The position numbers and the translations under genes are program-made. A DNA stretch of 44,929 nt from the NCBI GenBank assembly GCA_017459805.1, contig JAFUCE010000165.1:1-44929 (forward strand). Reading direction: 5' to 3'. The notes under the pieces are model-generated. The model was not told the DNA's origin. It was given only the letters and a program-made list of their open reading frames with translations, and ran no database searches. Positions 30,451 through 35,503 of the stretch are shown here, one piece after another (within the stretch, counting starts at the first letter, position 1; the number at the start of each line of letters is the position of its first letter). This DNA comes from Eggerthellaceae bacterium. GTDB taxonomy: Bacteria > Actinomycetota > Coriobacteriia > Coriobacteriales > Eggerthellaceae.

Positions 30451-30723
30451 CTATCGCTTCTTCCATGACGAGAAGCAGTTGGTGCACCATACCTCGTCAG
30501 GCCTAAATTCAAGGGTGCCGCTTTGACGGCAGAACGGGCAGACGGGAGGGGTATTCGTCGGCTCATCATCCGACCAGTAGCCGCCCCCAGAAATCGATTC
30601 AAGCTGCTCATCGCTAAGCTCGAAGCCCGATGATTGGGCGAGCTCAATGATCTGCTCAGGGCTCATACCTTCGAGGGCATCTCCCGACTGATCGACTTCG
30701 TTCTTCAAGTTATCCATCATCAT
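30451..30723 (-). CDS. Nif11-like double-glycine leader joined to a zinc ribbon
   Basis: The gene starts at one of three consecutive ATGs (30723, 30720 or 30717, the last best spaced from AGG) and encodes about 90 residues. The first part is helical and acidic and ends in FELSDEQLESISGGGYW. This resembles the C-terminal half of a Nif11-type RiPP leader (SPEQIIELAQSSGF, then LSDEQLE and GG), the kind cleaved after the double glycine by peptidase-containing ABC transporters. Instead of a peptide core, the remainder carries CPFC, WCTNC and a basic tail: a small zinc ribbon. No modification enzyme or transporter is adjacent. It may be a repurposed leader, a degenerate precursor or a small regulatory protein. 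The pairing of the parts is odd. Confidence 0.6.
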   Translation of the reverse strand: MMMDNLKNEVDQSGDALEGMSPEQIIELAQSSGFELSDEQLESISGGGYWSDDEPTNTPPVCPFCRQSGTLEFRPDEVWCTNCFSSWKKR

Positions 30724-30802
30724 CCTGTCTCTCGATGACCACATCTGTTTATTTATACGCACTAGCACAGGTACTTGTCCCAAGGAAAAATGAGTACAAG
30801 AG

Positions 30803-30852
30803 GATGTCAGGGGGATGTCAGGGGTCGGGGGGATGTCAGGGGTCGTGTGATT
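30803..30852. repeat. REP-like repeat cluster at the transposase 3' side
   Basis: Three ATGTCAGGGG units start at 30804, 30815 and 30833, directly beyond the transposase stop. The last unit continues into the 20-base arm of the element's inverted repeat. Repeats of this type beside a RAYT gene are normally its substrate. Confidence 0.65.
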
Positions 30853-31720
30853 CGACACGTTAGTCCCCCTGCTCCTTCGCTTTCTGCACTATCCCTCTCC
30901 CGATGCCCGTGATGCGCGCGATTTGGCGGACGGTGGCGCCGCGCGCTTTCAACAGGGCGATTGCGCTGTCGCGCTGCGCCTTGTCTGCCGCGGGAAGGGC
31001 GGTTCGCCAATCTTTCCCGAACGCTCCTTCGAGCATCCCCCGCACCGCACTGTCGCTGATGTGGAGCGCGCGGGCATGGCCATCGTCGGTGCTGTCCTCC
31101 ATGAAAGCCACGTCACGGTCATCCTTTTCGTGCAGTCGCCGGAACGCGGCACGACCCCCAGCGATATCCAACACGAAGCTGGTGTCGCAGATGCGTGGGC
31201 TCGACGTGTACTCCTTGTAACTGCTCCATTCGTAGGCGTCGAACTTGGCGATTCCAGCCTTCTGAGGGTTGAGGTGAATGTATCGGACGGCGGCGAGCAG
31301 CTGCGCGTCGTCCAAGATGGGTTCGCTTCCGAACCGTCCTTGGAAAAGGCATCCCGGCCTGTCATAGCGCGTGTTGTAGTAGACGGCGTAGGCGACCTCG
31401 AGGCGCTTCATGAAGCTTGAGAGCTCAGACAGCTCCATTTTCGCAAGCAAGTGGAAATGGTTTCCCATCAGGCACCATGCGAACAGGGAGCCCTTGGCCT
31501 CGCCGACGTAGGTTTCTAGGAGGTCCAGAAATCGGTAGTTGTCTTCGGCGTCTTCGAAGATTGCCTGACGGCCGACGCCGCGCGCGAACACGTGGTAGAG
31601 GTCGGCCTCGCTGCGCTTTCTCGGAGATCTGGGCATACTTGCGCCTCCTCTCGATAGATTGTGTGGGAAAGGAGTTTATGCTGCGAGAAAGAAGATGTCA
31701 AATCACACGACCCCTGACAT
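30833..31720 (-). mobile_element. RAYT element with perfect 20-base inverted ends
   Basis: ATGTCAGGGGTCGTGTGATT (30833-30852) and its exact complement (31701-31720) flank the transposase gene; a further TGACAT follows just outside at 31728-31733. The right end sits inside a MATE efflux gene, whose downstream part is absent. HUH/Y1 transposases move single strands and do not make target duplications, so none was expected or seen. Whether the repeats are true ends or a bracketing pair of REP sequences needs comparison with other copies. Confidence 0.7.
30860..31636 (-). CDS. REP-associated tyrosine transposase (RAYT, IS200-like)
   Basis: The 258-residue Y1 transposase has the HUH motif in MGNHFHLL (His60, His62), LFQGRFGSEPI, and the likely catalytic tyrosine in VRYIHLNPQKAG (Tyr119). 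A C-terminal helix-turn-helix (ATVRQIARITGIGRG) follows. RAYTs act on palindromic REP sequences and often occur once per genome without spreading. AGGAGG is nine bases upstream of the ATG. The gene lies within an inverted-repeat pair that has cut off the MATE gene, so it has moved here at least once. Confidence 0.9.
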   Translation of the reverse strand: MPRSPRKRSEADLYHVFARGVGRQAIFEDAEDNYRFLDLLETYVGEAKGSLFAWCLMGNHFHLLAKMELSELSSFMKRLEVAYAVYYNTRYDRPGCLFQGRFGSEPILDDAQLLAAVRYIHLNPQKAGIAKFDAYEWSSYKEYTSSPRICDTSFVLDIAGGRAAFRRLHEKDDRDVAFMEDSTDDGHARALHISDSAVRGMLEGAFGKDWRTALPAADKAQRDSAIALLKARGATVRQIARITGIGRGIVQKAKEQGD

Positions 31721-32048
31721 GGTGGCCTGACATGGTGGAAGACACCATGATGAACTTCACGGAAAACGAGAACACACGCGAAGCCTCTTCGCGCTTGCCT
31801 GCGCCTAGCAGCATCGACATGTTCACCGAAGCCCCTGTGGCAATCATGTTGGAGAGCGCCTCGGCGATAAAGACGATGGGCATGATGAGGTTGACCGCCG
31901 CGAGCGCGTCCTGCCCGATGAAGCGGCCCACGATAACACCGTCGGCGATAGAGTAGAGCGCCCCGAACACCGATGTGATGGCTGCAGGCACTGCGCAGCG
32001 GATGAGCAGCTTCGTTGGCGAAAGCTCTGTGAATATGTTTGAACCCAA
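31698..32048 (-). pseudogene. MATE family efflux transporter, truncated by the RAYT element
   Basis: The first 110 or so residues are an N-terminal MATE domain: SPTKLLIRCAVPAAITS, then VIVGRFIGQDALAAVNL and NMSMLLGAGKREEASRVF. At 31720 the sequence passes into the RAYT inverted end, and the frame closes after a few foreign codons. The remaining 330 or so residues of a normal MATE protein are nowhere in the window. The start is taken as TTG at 32048, because AAGGAG lies six bases before it. The product would be a nonfunctional fragment of three or four membrane helices. The intact leader upstream shows that the gene was once tightly regulated. Confidence 0.85.
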
Positions 32049-32067
32049 TGCTTGCTCCTTACAAAAA

Positions 32068-32108
32068 AGCCCGGTTCTCTGCAGCACTTACTGCGAGAAA
32101 ACCGGGCT
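32068..32108 (-). terminator. Intrinsic terminator/attenuator in the MATE leader
   Basis: Read leftward, AGCCCGGTT pairs with AACCGGGCT, with additional pairing below the loop, and is followed by TTTTTT just before the ribosome site of the MATE gene. A terminator between promoter and start codon means conditional readthrough. Its upstream arm overlaps the 3' arm of the outer stem of the leader fold. Confidence 0.85.
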
Positions 32109-32215
32109 CACCCGACACCTAATCCGGCAGGCGGACCGACTGTTCTAGCCTGCCCCACGTGCTACGGCACTCTGCCTCCGGTGACCAATACCAGTATGAA
32201 ACCTAAATCTTATTA
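32105..32215 (-). ncRNA. Structured leader RNA, riboswitch-like, upstream of the MATE gene
   Basis: The leftward transcript between about 32215 and 32105 can fold with an outer stem (GGTCACC at 32180-32186 with GGGTGAGCC at 32105-32113), a seven-pair inner stem (GGCAGGC with GCCTGCC at 32126-32132 and 32148-32154) and a small GTGC-CGTA-GCAC hairpin. The 3' arm of the outer stem shares 32105-32108 with the terminator, so the two folds exclude each other, as in riboswitches that act by attenuation. MATE exporters are common riboswitch targets. I checked guanidine-I, ZTP, TPP, SAM, FMN and T-box signatures from memory and none fits; the class and ligand are unknown. Confidence 0.6.
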
Positions 32216-32249
32216 GCCAGTGCGACCTCCATACGCTTGTGTATACGCT

Positions 32250-32258
32250 AGTATAACA
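32250..32258 (-). promoter_or_regulatory. Extended -10 promoter element of the MATE leader
   Basis: Read leftward, TGTTATACT contains a TG one base before TATACT, an extended -10. It is placed about 35 bases before the first folded part of the leader. No convincing -35 was found, which an extended -10 can tolerate. Confidence 0.5.
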
Positions 32259-32336
32259 CGGCTGCCATATGACTTTAGCGCCTCCCCCTAGTGGTGATTC
32301 CCCGCTTAACTTAACTCGCACTTTCCCGCATGCCCG

Positions 32337-32369: not shown

Positions 32370-32500
32370 TGGACGTAAGTCATGACCGTAAGCGTCACAG
32401 AACGTGACGCCGACCCCGGGAATACCAAGATACGCGAAGTGTACAAGTGACTAGAATGAGACAGTGTGGCCTGGCTATACTCACACAAGGAGGTTTTCAA

Positions 32501-35500
32501 ATGAACTCGAGAAATGCGGCAATCACCAAGCGGTCCTTAATTGTTCTTGGCCTGCTGCTCGCAATGGTCGCGGCAATCTTTGGTGGCATCCATTCTCCTG
32601 TTGCGCTTGCAGACGAAGGCGAAGGACCTGCTCCCAAGCCCGTTCGCACCACCGTTGCGCTTGCAGACGAAGGCAAAGGACCTGCTCCCAAGCCCGTTCG
32701 CACCATCATGATTTACCTAGATGGCGCCTCCTCCGAGGAGAACACCCCCGTGCTCACCGCCATGCTCAAGGAATACATGGCGTCGAAGTTCGATCGCAGC
32801 GATTTCCGCGTCATTGTCATGACGGGCGGCTCACTCAAATGGCATCTGGAAGCTAGCTACCTGCGGGACAAAGACGGCAACCCCGACAAGCTGACCGAGA
32901 TCAGCAGCGAGTACAATCAGGTTTGGGAAGTGTATGGGGCTAATGACGGCGGCTACTTGCGGCTGTTGGACGGCGACGGCGTGAGCGGTGATGGGGCCGA
33001 TGCCAAAAGGTCCGAAGAGGAGCTCATGAGCGACCCGGACACGTTGCAGAAGTTCATCAACTATGCCCATCGCATCGCGCCGGCAGGCAAATACGACCTT
33101 ATCCTGAACGACCATGGCGAGGGCCCTGAAGGCGGCTATGGCTTCGATGACCACGACACCGCAAACCCAGATGAGACTTTGTCCGTGCTTGAATTGCAGC
33201 AGGCAATCTCGGGAAGCGACGTTTGCGCAGGAGGCGGCAAGTTCGATTTCATCGACTTCGATTGCTGCATGATGGGCAATTTCGAAACGGCGCTCGCCTT
33301 GTCGGATTGCACGGACTATTACCTGGGGTCGGCAGACATCGATCCGCACGCTACGGTCGATTACACGGCGCTGTTCGATTTTCTTGCAACTGACCCCGAT
33401 ATGGATGCATGGGAATTGGGACGCAAGCTCGTCGATCTTTTCGGCGATTACTATAACGAGCACACGGACAAGGTATCGGTAGGCCCTTCGGATACCTATT
33501 GCGTGGTCAACACGAAGAAGCTCAAGCAGAGCGGGATCGTGGACAAGCTGCTGGCGATTGCAAGGCAGATGAGGGCGGAGGCGACGGCCGGGAGTTTCTA
33601 CGATGAAATCCGCGTTCCAAAAGACGCGTACCACTTCGCCCTTGTCAACCTACAGGATTTCGCGACCGTGATGGAGCAGCTTGGAATCGGAGTGTACGAA
33701 TCCGATTGGCGCGATCCAGGGTTCCTGAACGCCTACACGCCAACGGCACTCGAGATCCAGAACATCTTGCATGATGAAGACATCGTCTATTCGAGGCATA
33801 CGCAGAGGTCGGATGAAACGCATGTGTTCTTCGGCAGAAACGACGACGGAAGCCTAACGGCGAGGGGCGCGAAATCCCCGACAAGCGGTTTGAGCATCTT
33901 CGCCTTCAACAATCCCTCCGAAAGCGACGTTTCCGGCGAGGTGGCCTTCTACATCCAGGCGATGAGAGAGCTATCCGGGGCATATGAGGAGGGTTCGGTA
34001 GAGAGGGAGTTGCTCGAGACGTACCTGCAGGCAATTCTCGATTACGAGTTGATTTGCCACGCCGGTGTTGCCGTGTCGAGCCTCGCAGAAGACGGTTGCG
34101 CCCCCGACGAGATCGACTACGACAAAGTTCTCGCCTACCTCAAGTCCCAAGAATCCGAACACATCAAGAGGGGATGGGAATACATCTCGAAGGCGTTTGA
34201 GGCCAGCGACAGGAACGTCGAGGCATGGCTGAGCGGGATCATAGACATCCAGCGCAAGGAAGTCTTGAATAATGACAAGGTATCCCTTAAGGCAGAATCC
34301 AAGGACGGAACAGACTACTACCGTATCGATGTGGCCGATACGCCAAAGCGTGTTATCGACGTTCCAGCTCTTACCGTAACGGCAGGAACTGCAGTTGAGC
34401 CCTTCAAAAATCCCACTATGGTCTTCTACGGCAGTGCAGCTTCCGACGCAACGGGCGATTCCTCTGAAGATTACATGACCAAGACTAATTCTTCCTACCT
34501 CATTCCGAAGTTTGACGGGCAGTGGTATGCCGTAGAGGATTCTGATGGGGTCAAGCACATTGCAAGCGCCGCATCAGACCACTCCGTTTTTGCGTCGTTC
34601 TCGCTCAACGGTAAAAACCTGGGAGTGGGAGAGCTCATCTTCGATGACAACGGAAACGCAAAAAGCGTCTACGTGTACGGCAACACAATACCGATTGCCC
34701 TTGACACGCTTGAGGGAATGCTGTTTGTCACATTGGAGAACGACCCGTTCGGGGGGACCTCGGGGGCGATAGATATGCCGTTTATGCTCGAGAAGACAAA
34801 TGCCAAGTTGGTAAAGGATCATTACTCGAATCTGGGCATTGAGTCTGTTGAGGCCAAATTGGCGATTGCTGATATGTACGGAGTCAAGCATGAGGTCAAG
34901 CCGGAGTTGACCTTCGACCCCAATGGTGGCACGTGGACAGGGGGCGGCGATGCCGTCAAGAAGTACGATGTAGGCCTCGAGACTGATTTCGAGATTATCG
35001 CAGCTCCCACGCGGGACGGTTACACCTTCGAATGCTGGGAGGGCTCGACCTACCAGCCAGGGCAGCAATACCATGCGGACAGCGACCATACGTTTACCGC
35101 GAAGTGGAAGAAGAATGAGCCTCCTGCACCTGCGGTCTTCACCGTGACATTCGTGGACGGGCTGGGCAACACCTTGGACACGCAGACCGTCGAGAGCGGC
35201 AAGGCCGCCACGGCGCCCGCCGATCCCACCCGCAAGGGCTACACCTTTGACGGCTGGGACACCGACTTCAGCAATGTCACGTCCGACCTGACTGTGACCG
35301 CGAAGTGGAAGAAGAACGAGCAAAGCAAGCCAAGTAGCTCCAGCAATCAGACGGCCAAAAAGACCCCGACGGCATCGAACCCGAGCACAGTGGCGAAGAC
35401 GGGGGATTCCGTCAATCCGATACATCTGCTTCTGCTTCTACTCCTGCTGGCGTCAAGTGGAACGATTGCGGCTGTTGCCAAGAAGCGAAATCGCGAACTA

Positions 35501-35503
35501 TAA
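32501..35503 (+). CDS. Secreted clostripain-family (C11) cysteine protease with wall-anchor-like tail
   Basis: The 1000-residue protein has a signal peptide (hydrophobic core about 12-30, VALADEG cleavage region). The C11 catalytic domain has the His in LILNDHGEGPEGGYG (His205) and the catalytic Cys in FIDFDCCMMGN (Cys256 by alignment with the usual FDACLM). Two Listeria-Bacteroides repeats follow (GYTFECWEGS and GYTFDGWDTD regions, each ending TAKWKK). A Ser/Pro/Lys-rich linker then leads to a tail of VAKTGDS, a hydrophobic helix and KKRNREL. The tail resembles a sortase signal with a nonstandard motif, so cell-wall attachment is likely but not certain. ATG 32501 has AAGGAGG upstream. Clostripain-type enzymes cleave after Arg and process surface or host proteins. 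Confidence 0.85.
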   Translation: MNSRNAAITKRSLIVLGLLLAMVAAIFGGIHSPVALADEGEGPAPKPVRTTVALADEGKGPAPKPVRTIMIYLDGASSEENTPVLTAMLKEYMASKFDRSDFRVIVMTGGSLKWHLEASYLRDKDGNPDKLTEISSEYNQVWEVYGANDGGYLRLLDGDGVSGDGADAKRSEEELMSDPDTLQKFINYAHRIAPAGKYDLILNDHGEGPEGGYGFDDHDTANPDETLSVLELQQAISGSDVCAGGGKFDFIDFDCCMMGNFETALALSDCTDYYLGSADIDPHATVDYTALFDFLATDPDMDAWELGRKLVDLFGDYYNEHTDKVSVGPSDTYCVVNTKKLKQSGIVDKLLAIARQMRAEATAGSFYDEIRVPKDAYHFALVNLQDFATVMEQLGIGVYESDWRDPGFLNAYTPTALEIQNILHDEDIVYSRHTQRSDETHVFFGRNDDGSLTARGAKSPTSGLSIFAFNNPSESDVSGEVAFYIQAMRELSGAYEEGSVERELLETYLQAILDYELICHAGVAVSSLAEDGCAPDEIDYDKVLAYLKSQESEHIKRGWEYISKAFEASDRNVEAWLSGIIDIQRKEVLNNDKVSLKAESKDGTDYYRIDVADTPKRVIDVPALTVTAGTAVEPFKNPTMVFYGSAASDATGDSSEDYMTKTNSSYLIPKFDGQWYAVEDSDGVKHIASAASDHSVFASFSLNGKNLGVGELIFDDNGNAKSVYVYGNTIPIALDTLEGMLFVTLENDPFGGTSGAIDMPFMLEKTNAKLVKDHYSNLGIESVEAKLAIADMYGVKHEVKPELTFDPNGGTWTGGGDAVKKYDVGLETDFEIIAAPTRDGYTFECWEGSTYQPGQQYHADSDHTFTAKWKKNEPPAPAVFTVTFVDGLGNTLDTQTVESGKAATAPADPTRKGYTFDGWDTDFSNVTSDLTVTAKWKKNEQSKPSSSSNQTAKKTPTASNPSTVAKTGDSVNPIHLLLLLLLLASSGTIAAVAKKRNREL
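32600..32707 (+). repeat. 54-base in-frame tandem duplication across the signal-peptidase site
   Basis: Two near-identical 54-base units (32600-32653 and 32654-32707, differing at only a few positions) each encode VALADEG(E/K)GPAPKPVRT. The repeated part includes the ALA cleavage site, so the mature protein may begin with one or both copies. The high identity means the duplication is young. Confidence 0.9.

Follow-up and report, generated by a model that had tools for sequence, protein, structure and literature searches.

On the minus strand of a contig from an Eggerthellaceae bacterium (JAFUCE010000165.1, assembly GCA_017459805.1; "the window" is the whole stretch analysed, 44,929 nucleotides), upstream of a broken MATE exporter gene, lies a leader RNA that we regard, with good though not complete confidence, as an intact member of an as yet unassigned transcription-attenuating, riboswitch-like class governing the export or modification of a toxic compound, a class that appears distinct from the guanidine-IV variant Gd4v as published descriptions give it. 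The class probably turns exporter and acetyltransferase genes on when a toxic compound is present. A more specific formulation, in which a riboswitch class of gut Actinomycetota and Bacillota senses one amine-like toxin and switches on four unrelated families of defence proteins (MATE, MFS, ABC and GNAT) through two interchangeable terminator designs, seems to us evenly poised between right and wrong. An earlier note on this DNA had proposed an attenuation riboswitch; the covarying core, the mutually exclusive terminator and the gene set bear out the attenuator, while for the strict ligand-binding sense of the term, i.e., direct binding of a small molecule by the core, we rely on inference. 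That note named no strand. All of the parts are found on the minus strand, as follows:

32250-32258, minus strand: extended -10-like element TGTTATACT (TG-T-TATACT), promoter uncertain
32102-32186, minus strand: conserved RNA core (aptamer-like domain), 85 nt, aligned with 5 and then 19 relatives
32180-32183, minus strand: P1 5' strand CACC, pairing with GGUG at 32116-32119
32172-32176, minus strand: P2 5' strand GGCAG, pairing with CUGCC at 32126-32130
32159-32170, minus strand: P3 hairpin GUGC-CGUA-GCAC, with two-sided changes in 4 of 5 P3 pairs
32133-32155, minus strand: P4 hairpin, variable, absent from short-form relatives
32126-32130, minus strand: P2 3' strand CUGCC, the pairs being of GGC/GCC, GAC/GUC and GGU/ACC types in relatives
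32120-32125, minus strand: conserved internal-loop strand GGAUUA, usually GGAKAA, opposite GGA/GGAG
32116-32119, minus strand: P1 3' strand GGUG, CACC/GGUG becoming CAUC/GAUG in relatives
32103-32114, minus strand: P5 hairpin CGGG-UGAG-CCCG with a YNMG-type loop, mutually exclusive with the terminator
32063-32109, minus strand: intrinsic terminator, stem GAGCCCGGUUUUCUCGCAG...CUGCAGAGAACCGGGC followed by U6, replacing P5 in the full-length minimum free energy (MFE) structure

The minus-strand leader has an MFE of -78.5 kcal/mol (z -3.3), which none of 200 shuffles equalled, and the folded region claimed in the earlier note is thereby upheld. The plus strand folds equally well (z -3.7), which a palindromic terminator would lead one to expect, so that folding energy alone could not settle the matter. 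The terminator hairpin (~32109-32069, with U6 at 32068-32063), a strong one, forms pairs with the last part of the fold, and a Shine-Dalgarno-like AAGGAGC lies between it and the MATE frame. At the 5' end, the extended -10 that had been noted is present at 32258-32250; a good -35 is absent, 64 nt separate the -10 from the conserved RNA, some 57 nt of unconserved leader lie between the likely start and that RNA, and the site gave no promoter in a simple sigma-70 scan. Many relatives, on the other hand, carry a near-consensus promoter 3-40 nt upstream of the RNA, the promoter score reaching at least 10 of 12.5 in 22 of 51 relatives as opposed to 2.3% of shuffles, and we therefore take the promoter of the window to be weak or uncertain.

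The core runs in the order P1, internal loop, P2, P3, optional P4 and hairpin P5, the window copy having a three-way junction with P3 and P4. Across the family P1 reads CAYC/GRUG, P2 has 3-5 pairs and the P3 loop is CGYA in nearly all members; ahead of the terminator come U-C and then P5, as C-R-R-G, loop UGMG and C-Y-Y-G. The short form, to which many of the genome matches belong, is 61 nt long and lacks P4, and most long forms have a non-canonical 3x3 stretch inside P4. Outer and inner stems had been predicted from the single sequence, and stems there are, with comparative pairs that differ from the single-sequence fold: the MFE pairing of the window, which joins CACC to a partner farther downstream, is ruled out by the covarying P1 CACC/GGUG. 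Likewise, the terminator arm had been said to overlap the outer stem, and it is P5 rather than P1 that it overlaps in the window.

These helices are supported by covariation in both forms. In the short forms (n=17), 99.6% of cells are paired and 9 of 15 pairs show two-sided changes, for a covariation score of 0.49 against 0.21 after shuffling; versions with slid partners score 0.14 or less. The long forms have 44 two-sided cells against 15.7 shuffled. In neither form does any of 500 shuffles reach the observed value, which answers the check for covarying pairs that the earlier note had put forward, with the proviso that the relatives share ancestry and that the shuffle counts therefore overstate significance. 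Changes in P2 are supported in the short form, P2 of the long form being almost invariant or wobbling. P5 is paired in every one of the 17 short and the 20 long forms (100%), A-U and G-C pairs replacing each other, and in many members with A-U pairs in P5 the 3' arm of the terminator is still CCGGGC, leaving a G-U wobble in the terminator; P5 thus appears to be conserved for its own sake, apart from the terminator. The third bases of the P3 and P5 loops also vary together, CGCA occurring with UGCG and CGUA with UGAG (Fisher p 1.8e-7, phylogeny not controlled). Simple Watson-Crick kissing of the two loops does not account for this: CGCA/UGCG is fully complementary, but the commonest other pair, CGUA/UGAG, is not Watson-Crick.

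The same RNA is found well beyond the window. BLASTN of the leader across 138 genomes of the bacterial family gave two further loci, and a scan with the MATE N-terminus gave homologous exporters in Coriobacteriales, Eggerthellales, Oscillibacter and Lachnospiraceae metagenome-assembled genomes, upstream of which the RNA recurs at 72-81% identity (BLAST matches) or as short conserved blocks; it stands upstream of MATE in Eggerthellaceae relatives as well. A covariance model built from six sequences (R1) matches in 16 of 396 Coriobacteriia genomes and in 19 of 245 genomes from the order of the Oscillibacter locus, with E-values from ~4e-4 down to 3e-18. A second model (R2), built from the 17 short forms only with the window copy left out, recovers that copy as the sole match in its own genome (E 3.9e-7); it matches in 9 of 196 genomes from the order of the Lachnospiraceae locus and in 4 of 348 from a sample of the Bacillota phylum of that locus. 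The one match among 198 Actinomycetota genomes is the window's own, and this sample thus serves as a negative control indicating a low false-positive rate. The kinship of the sampled genomes is taken only from the loci that led to them. Homologues also sit on plasmids, namely Selenomonas ruminantium pSRC2 (Negativicutes) and one from Subdoligranulum, such that the family spans Coriobacteriia, Clostridia of at least two orders and one Negativicutes plasmid. An exact-pattern scan of viral contigs did not find the RNA, and among phages, apart from chance matches, there was one partial match, to a faecal phage whose record is unannotated. A covariance search over Coriobacteriia had been the proposed check; the family reaches well past that class.

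The conserved, covarying core precedes genes that are diverse and functionally related. We scanned 44 proteins encoded first downstream of the RNA. Exporters of the MATE (18), MFS (7) and ABC (4) kinds together with GNAT acetyltransferases (12) make up 41 of them, and another is cytidylate kinase-like, its gene being followed by a MATE gene. The MATE genes represent several subfamilies, and the one MFS protein tested is closest to Bcr/CflA. The GNAT proteins of loci L087 (185 aa) and L040 come from different phyla and are 40% identical; they have no close solved relative in the PDB, and neither NCBIfam nor the PDB identified a substrate. The presence of a GNAT alongside exporters hints that the ligand is cationic or has a primary amine, and our guess, from gene content, is a cationic or amine-bearing toxic compound. 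At locus L098 (1326-1583), the RNA occurs twice in a row ahead of a broken ABC exporter gene, and each copy has a terminator of its own; this may be a tandem riboswitch.

Core and terminator are mutually exclusive, and this is achieved in two ways. In the class-A design, to which the window belongs, the 3' strand of P5 is part of the 5' arm of the terminator. In class B (L102, L113, L114, L117, L118), P5 is kept and the 3' strands of P1 and P2 enter the terminator (GGAUAAGAUG in most); in L102, L114, L117 and L118 the terminator consists of GGAUAAG plus the P1 3' strand with P5 on top, and the fold of L113 behaves as theirs do. Among the 44 class-A leaders folded at full length, the terminator replaces P5 in the MFE structure in all except L088 and L109, which, together with L046, have poor terminators in the stretch examined. 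Over the 49 leaders folded, the median penalty for forcing P1 and P5 is 15 kcal/mol, the energies being those of secondary structure alone, without tertiary contacts, ligand or kinetics. When the core is folded alone, P1 and P5 form in most class-A members, and the window core by itself prefers another pairing in its single-sequence MFE. The energetic cost and the terminator-bearing MFE fit a switch that is OFF by default. Because both terminator designs compete with the core, a stabilised core is predicted to prevent termination, and with exporters downstream this is how an ON switch answering a toxic compound would work. In the absence of ligand, the nascent RNA would complete the terminator, the 5' arm of which takes the P5 3' strand, and transcription would stop before the exporter. 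A ligand that stabilised the core of P1, internal loop, P2 and P3 together with P5 would keep the terminator from nucleating, and the exporter would be made. We infer from these folding models that the leader is such an ON switch, one in which folding of the core blocks termination.

In the window itself, the switch would survive as an orphan leader, its exporter having been cut. The features that bear on this are:

31698-32048, minus strand: 5' remnant of a MATE exporter gene, TTG start at 32048, Pfam MatE E 4e-11
31696-31720, strand not given: inverted-repeat arm of an IS200-like element, partner at 30833-30857, 25 nt, 96% complementary
30860-31636, minus strand: IS200-like Y1 transposase gene, Pfam PF01797 E 6.6e-8, adjoining the break

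The remnant matches intact homologues for 108 residues and then enters the end of the IS200-like element (30833-31720, ~890 nt), which abuts the cut gene; the rest of the MATE gene was not found in the genome, where there is only a 24% identical paralogue. The claim that the controlled gene is broken is thus confirmed. The gene was apparently cut by insertion of the IS200-like element or a related rearrangement, and since its remainder is absent, a simple insertion is insufficient, and a later deletion or a gap in the assembly would have to be added. Breaks in this MATE gene occur elsewhere too, at ~residue 140 in L006, at ~222 in L109 and, as a frameshift, near residue 262 in L007, and at L119 (3000-3200, pSRC2) the leader, unannotated in the record, precedes a MATE gene broken at ~residue 12. 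Judging from these loci, breakage of the gene with survival of the leader has happened more than once. In relatives the leader is strongly conserved ahead of intact homologous MATE genes (L005, L008, L100, L092), as had been anticipated, and the lack of such conservation, which the earlier note had named as a refutation, is thus not what we observe; MATE is intact in L005, L008 and others. Three further features of the neighbourhood may be recorded. Short REP-like GGATGTCAGGG repeats lie near the IS200-like element. A 135-aa open reading frame (30451-30858), which starts inside the transposon repeat, has a leader-like ...DEQLESISGGG followed by a cysteine-containing tail, and is a possible Nif11/double-glycine-type peptide precursor. 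The divergent neighbour (32447-35503) encodes a 1018-aa peptidase of the clostripain family (C11) that carries List_Bact repeats and has an anchor-like C-terminus.

The most serious competitor to a ligand-binding RNA is an attenuator worked by a trans-acting factor, be it an RNA-binding antiterminator protein or a tRNA. Alternative antiterminator and terminator hairpins are a device that proteins also exploit. The conserved nucleotides, however, lie in the internal, P3 and P5 loops of a compact core of several helices, which is unlike a short RAT-like hairpin. Members are found in different phyla and ahead of unrelated families of genes, a shared regulator gene was not seen next to them, and Rfam gives no T-box match. 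We therefore consider a trans-acting factor unlikely, if worth keeping in mind.

Less likely still, in our estimation, is that the RNA is simply guanidine-IV or its published variant Gd4v, which are nearest in gene context, with MATE and GNAT genes (PMC7736828, PMC9788692, PMC11611296), and are likewise gut-enriched (PMC9788692). In the literature surveyed, including the text of the ncRNA papers on 26 and 50 genomes, they are the only RNAs found with such genes. At the gathering score, Rfam 15 has no match in the whole window and only tRNAs on 20 homologous loci; at E up to 10 there is a RybB terminator match (22.9 of 40 bits) plus chance matches and otherwise none. The contention that no familiar class fits has thus withstood the Rfam comparison, chance terminator matches aside, a negative that is weak evidence alone because the library also misses the guanidine-IV-like elements upstream of SugE in this bacterial family. 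These elements (L053 and L056, 1796-1881; L123-L131) have CUGCCGCCGGGUAG ... GGUAGGCCU.AGAAG inside the terminator and stand before SugE and before another conserved protein (MKQFVTEESFWELFP...); we call those of L053 and L056 guanidine-IV-like from architecture and context rather than published sequence. A model of them (R3, from L053 and L056) detects elements like these in 9 of 164 Coriobacteriia genomes and, over 61 loci among which are the members of the window class, leaves every such member unmatched at E up to 10; conversely, R1 has no match over 30 SugE loci. Yet R2 run without filters has its best match in L056 (10.3 bits, E 0.42), a weak one on the second loop of the guanidine-IV-like element, where CAUC-GGUAGG-CC-UGAGAA-GAUG lines up with CAUC-GGAGG-(hairpin)-CC-GGAGAA-GAUG. 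Given this slight loop likeness (CAUC-GG..AGG..CC..GAGAA-GAUG), the class may be distantly related in structure to guanidine-IV, the kissing loop being replaced by an internal hairpin. Upstream of SugE at L074-L080 there is also CCUGACGAGGGC.GCCGUACCAGG...AAGACGGCGC, which resembles guanidine-III. Finally, a chance fold with a terminator, or a constitutive terminator of the neighbouring region, which could appeal to the frequency with which GC-rich windows fold and to the empty sigma-70 scan, is refuted by the comparison across classes, in which sequence is conserved, helices covary and the gene context is consistent, and deserves next to no credence.

Unrecognised metabolites have come to light through exporter-linked orphan riboswitches before, guanidine being the case in point. 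In the class as we read it, the core is compact at 61 nt, the natural sequences run to dozens, the polarity is expected to be ON and the gene set is clear, all of which makes the ligand directly screenable. That ligand would reveal a compound toxic to these gut bacteria, and it would help to assign substrates to MATE, MFS, ABC and GNAT families that are not assignable from sequence.

Among known systems, guanidine-IV (the GGAM-1/mepA motif) comes close in behaviour: it is a terminating ON switch before MATE and GNAT genes, as the window class would also be. The architectures differ: in guanidine-IV and Gd4v a pseudoknot links two kissing hairpins, and the terminator hairpin holds the second, conserved loop, whereas in the window class the core lies upstream of the terminator, the terminator loops vary freely and no conserved upstream hairpin is present. 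Guanidine-IV commonly precedes sugE, whereas the downstream open reading frames of the window class include no SugE, and neither SugE nor a transaminase was found downstream among ~50 members. Gd4v, compared here by description, shares the gut enrichment, the MATE and GNAT genes and an extra hairpin, described as sitting on the terminator hairpin. It is, however, described as extremely similar to guanidine-IV, with differences D1-D4, a similarity that the window class, unmatched by R3, appears to lack, and more than half of its examples precede a transaminase (PRK07324), whereas no aminotransferase is found among the 44 proteins scanned here. The older classes guanidine-I/ykkC, guanidine-II and guanidine-III, which are expected in Rfam, are also exporter-associated, and the window and its relatives match no Rfam family. 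The azaaromatic-sensing yjdF RNA likewise belongs to toxin response and is thought to sense xenobiotic-like ligands; its gene context differs, and it too gives no Rfam match here. A transcription-terminating riboswitch is, in itself, a device of known kind, and the putative class described here is one that is widespread in gut and rumen bacteria.
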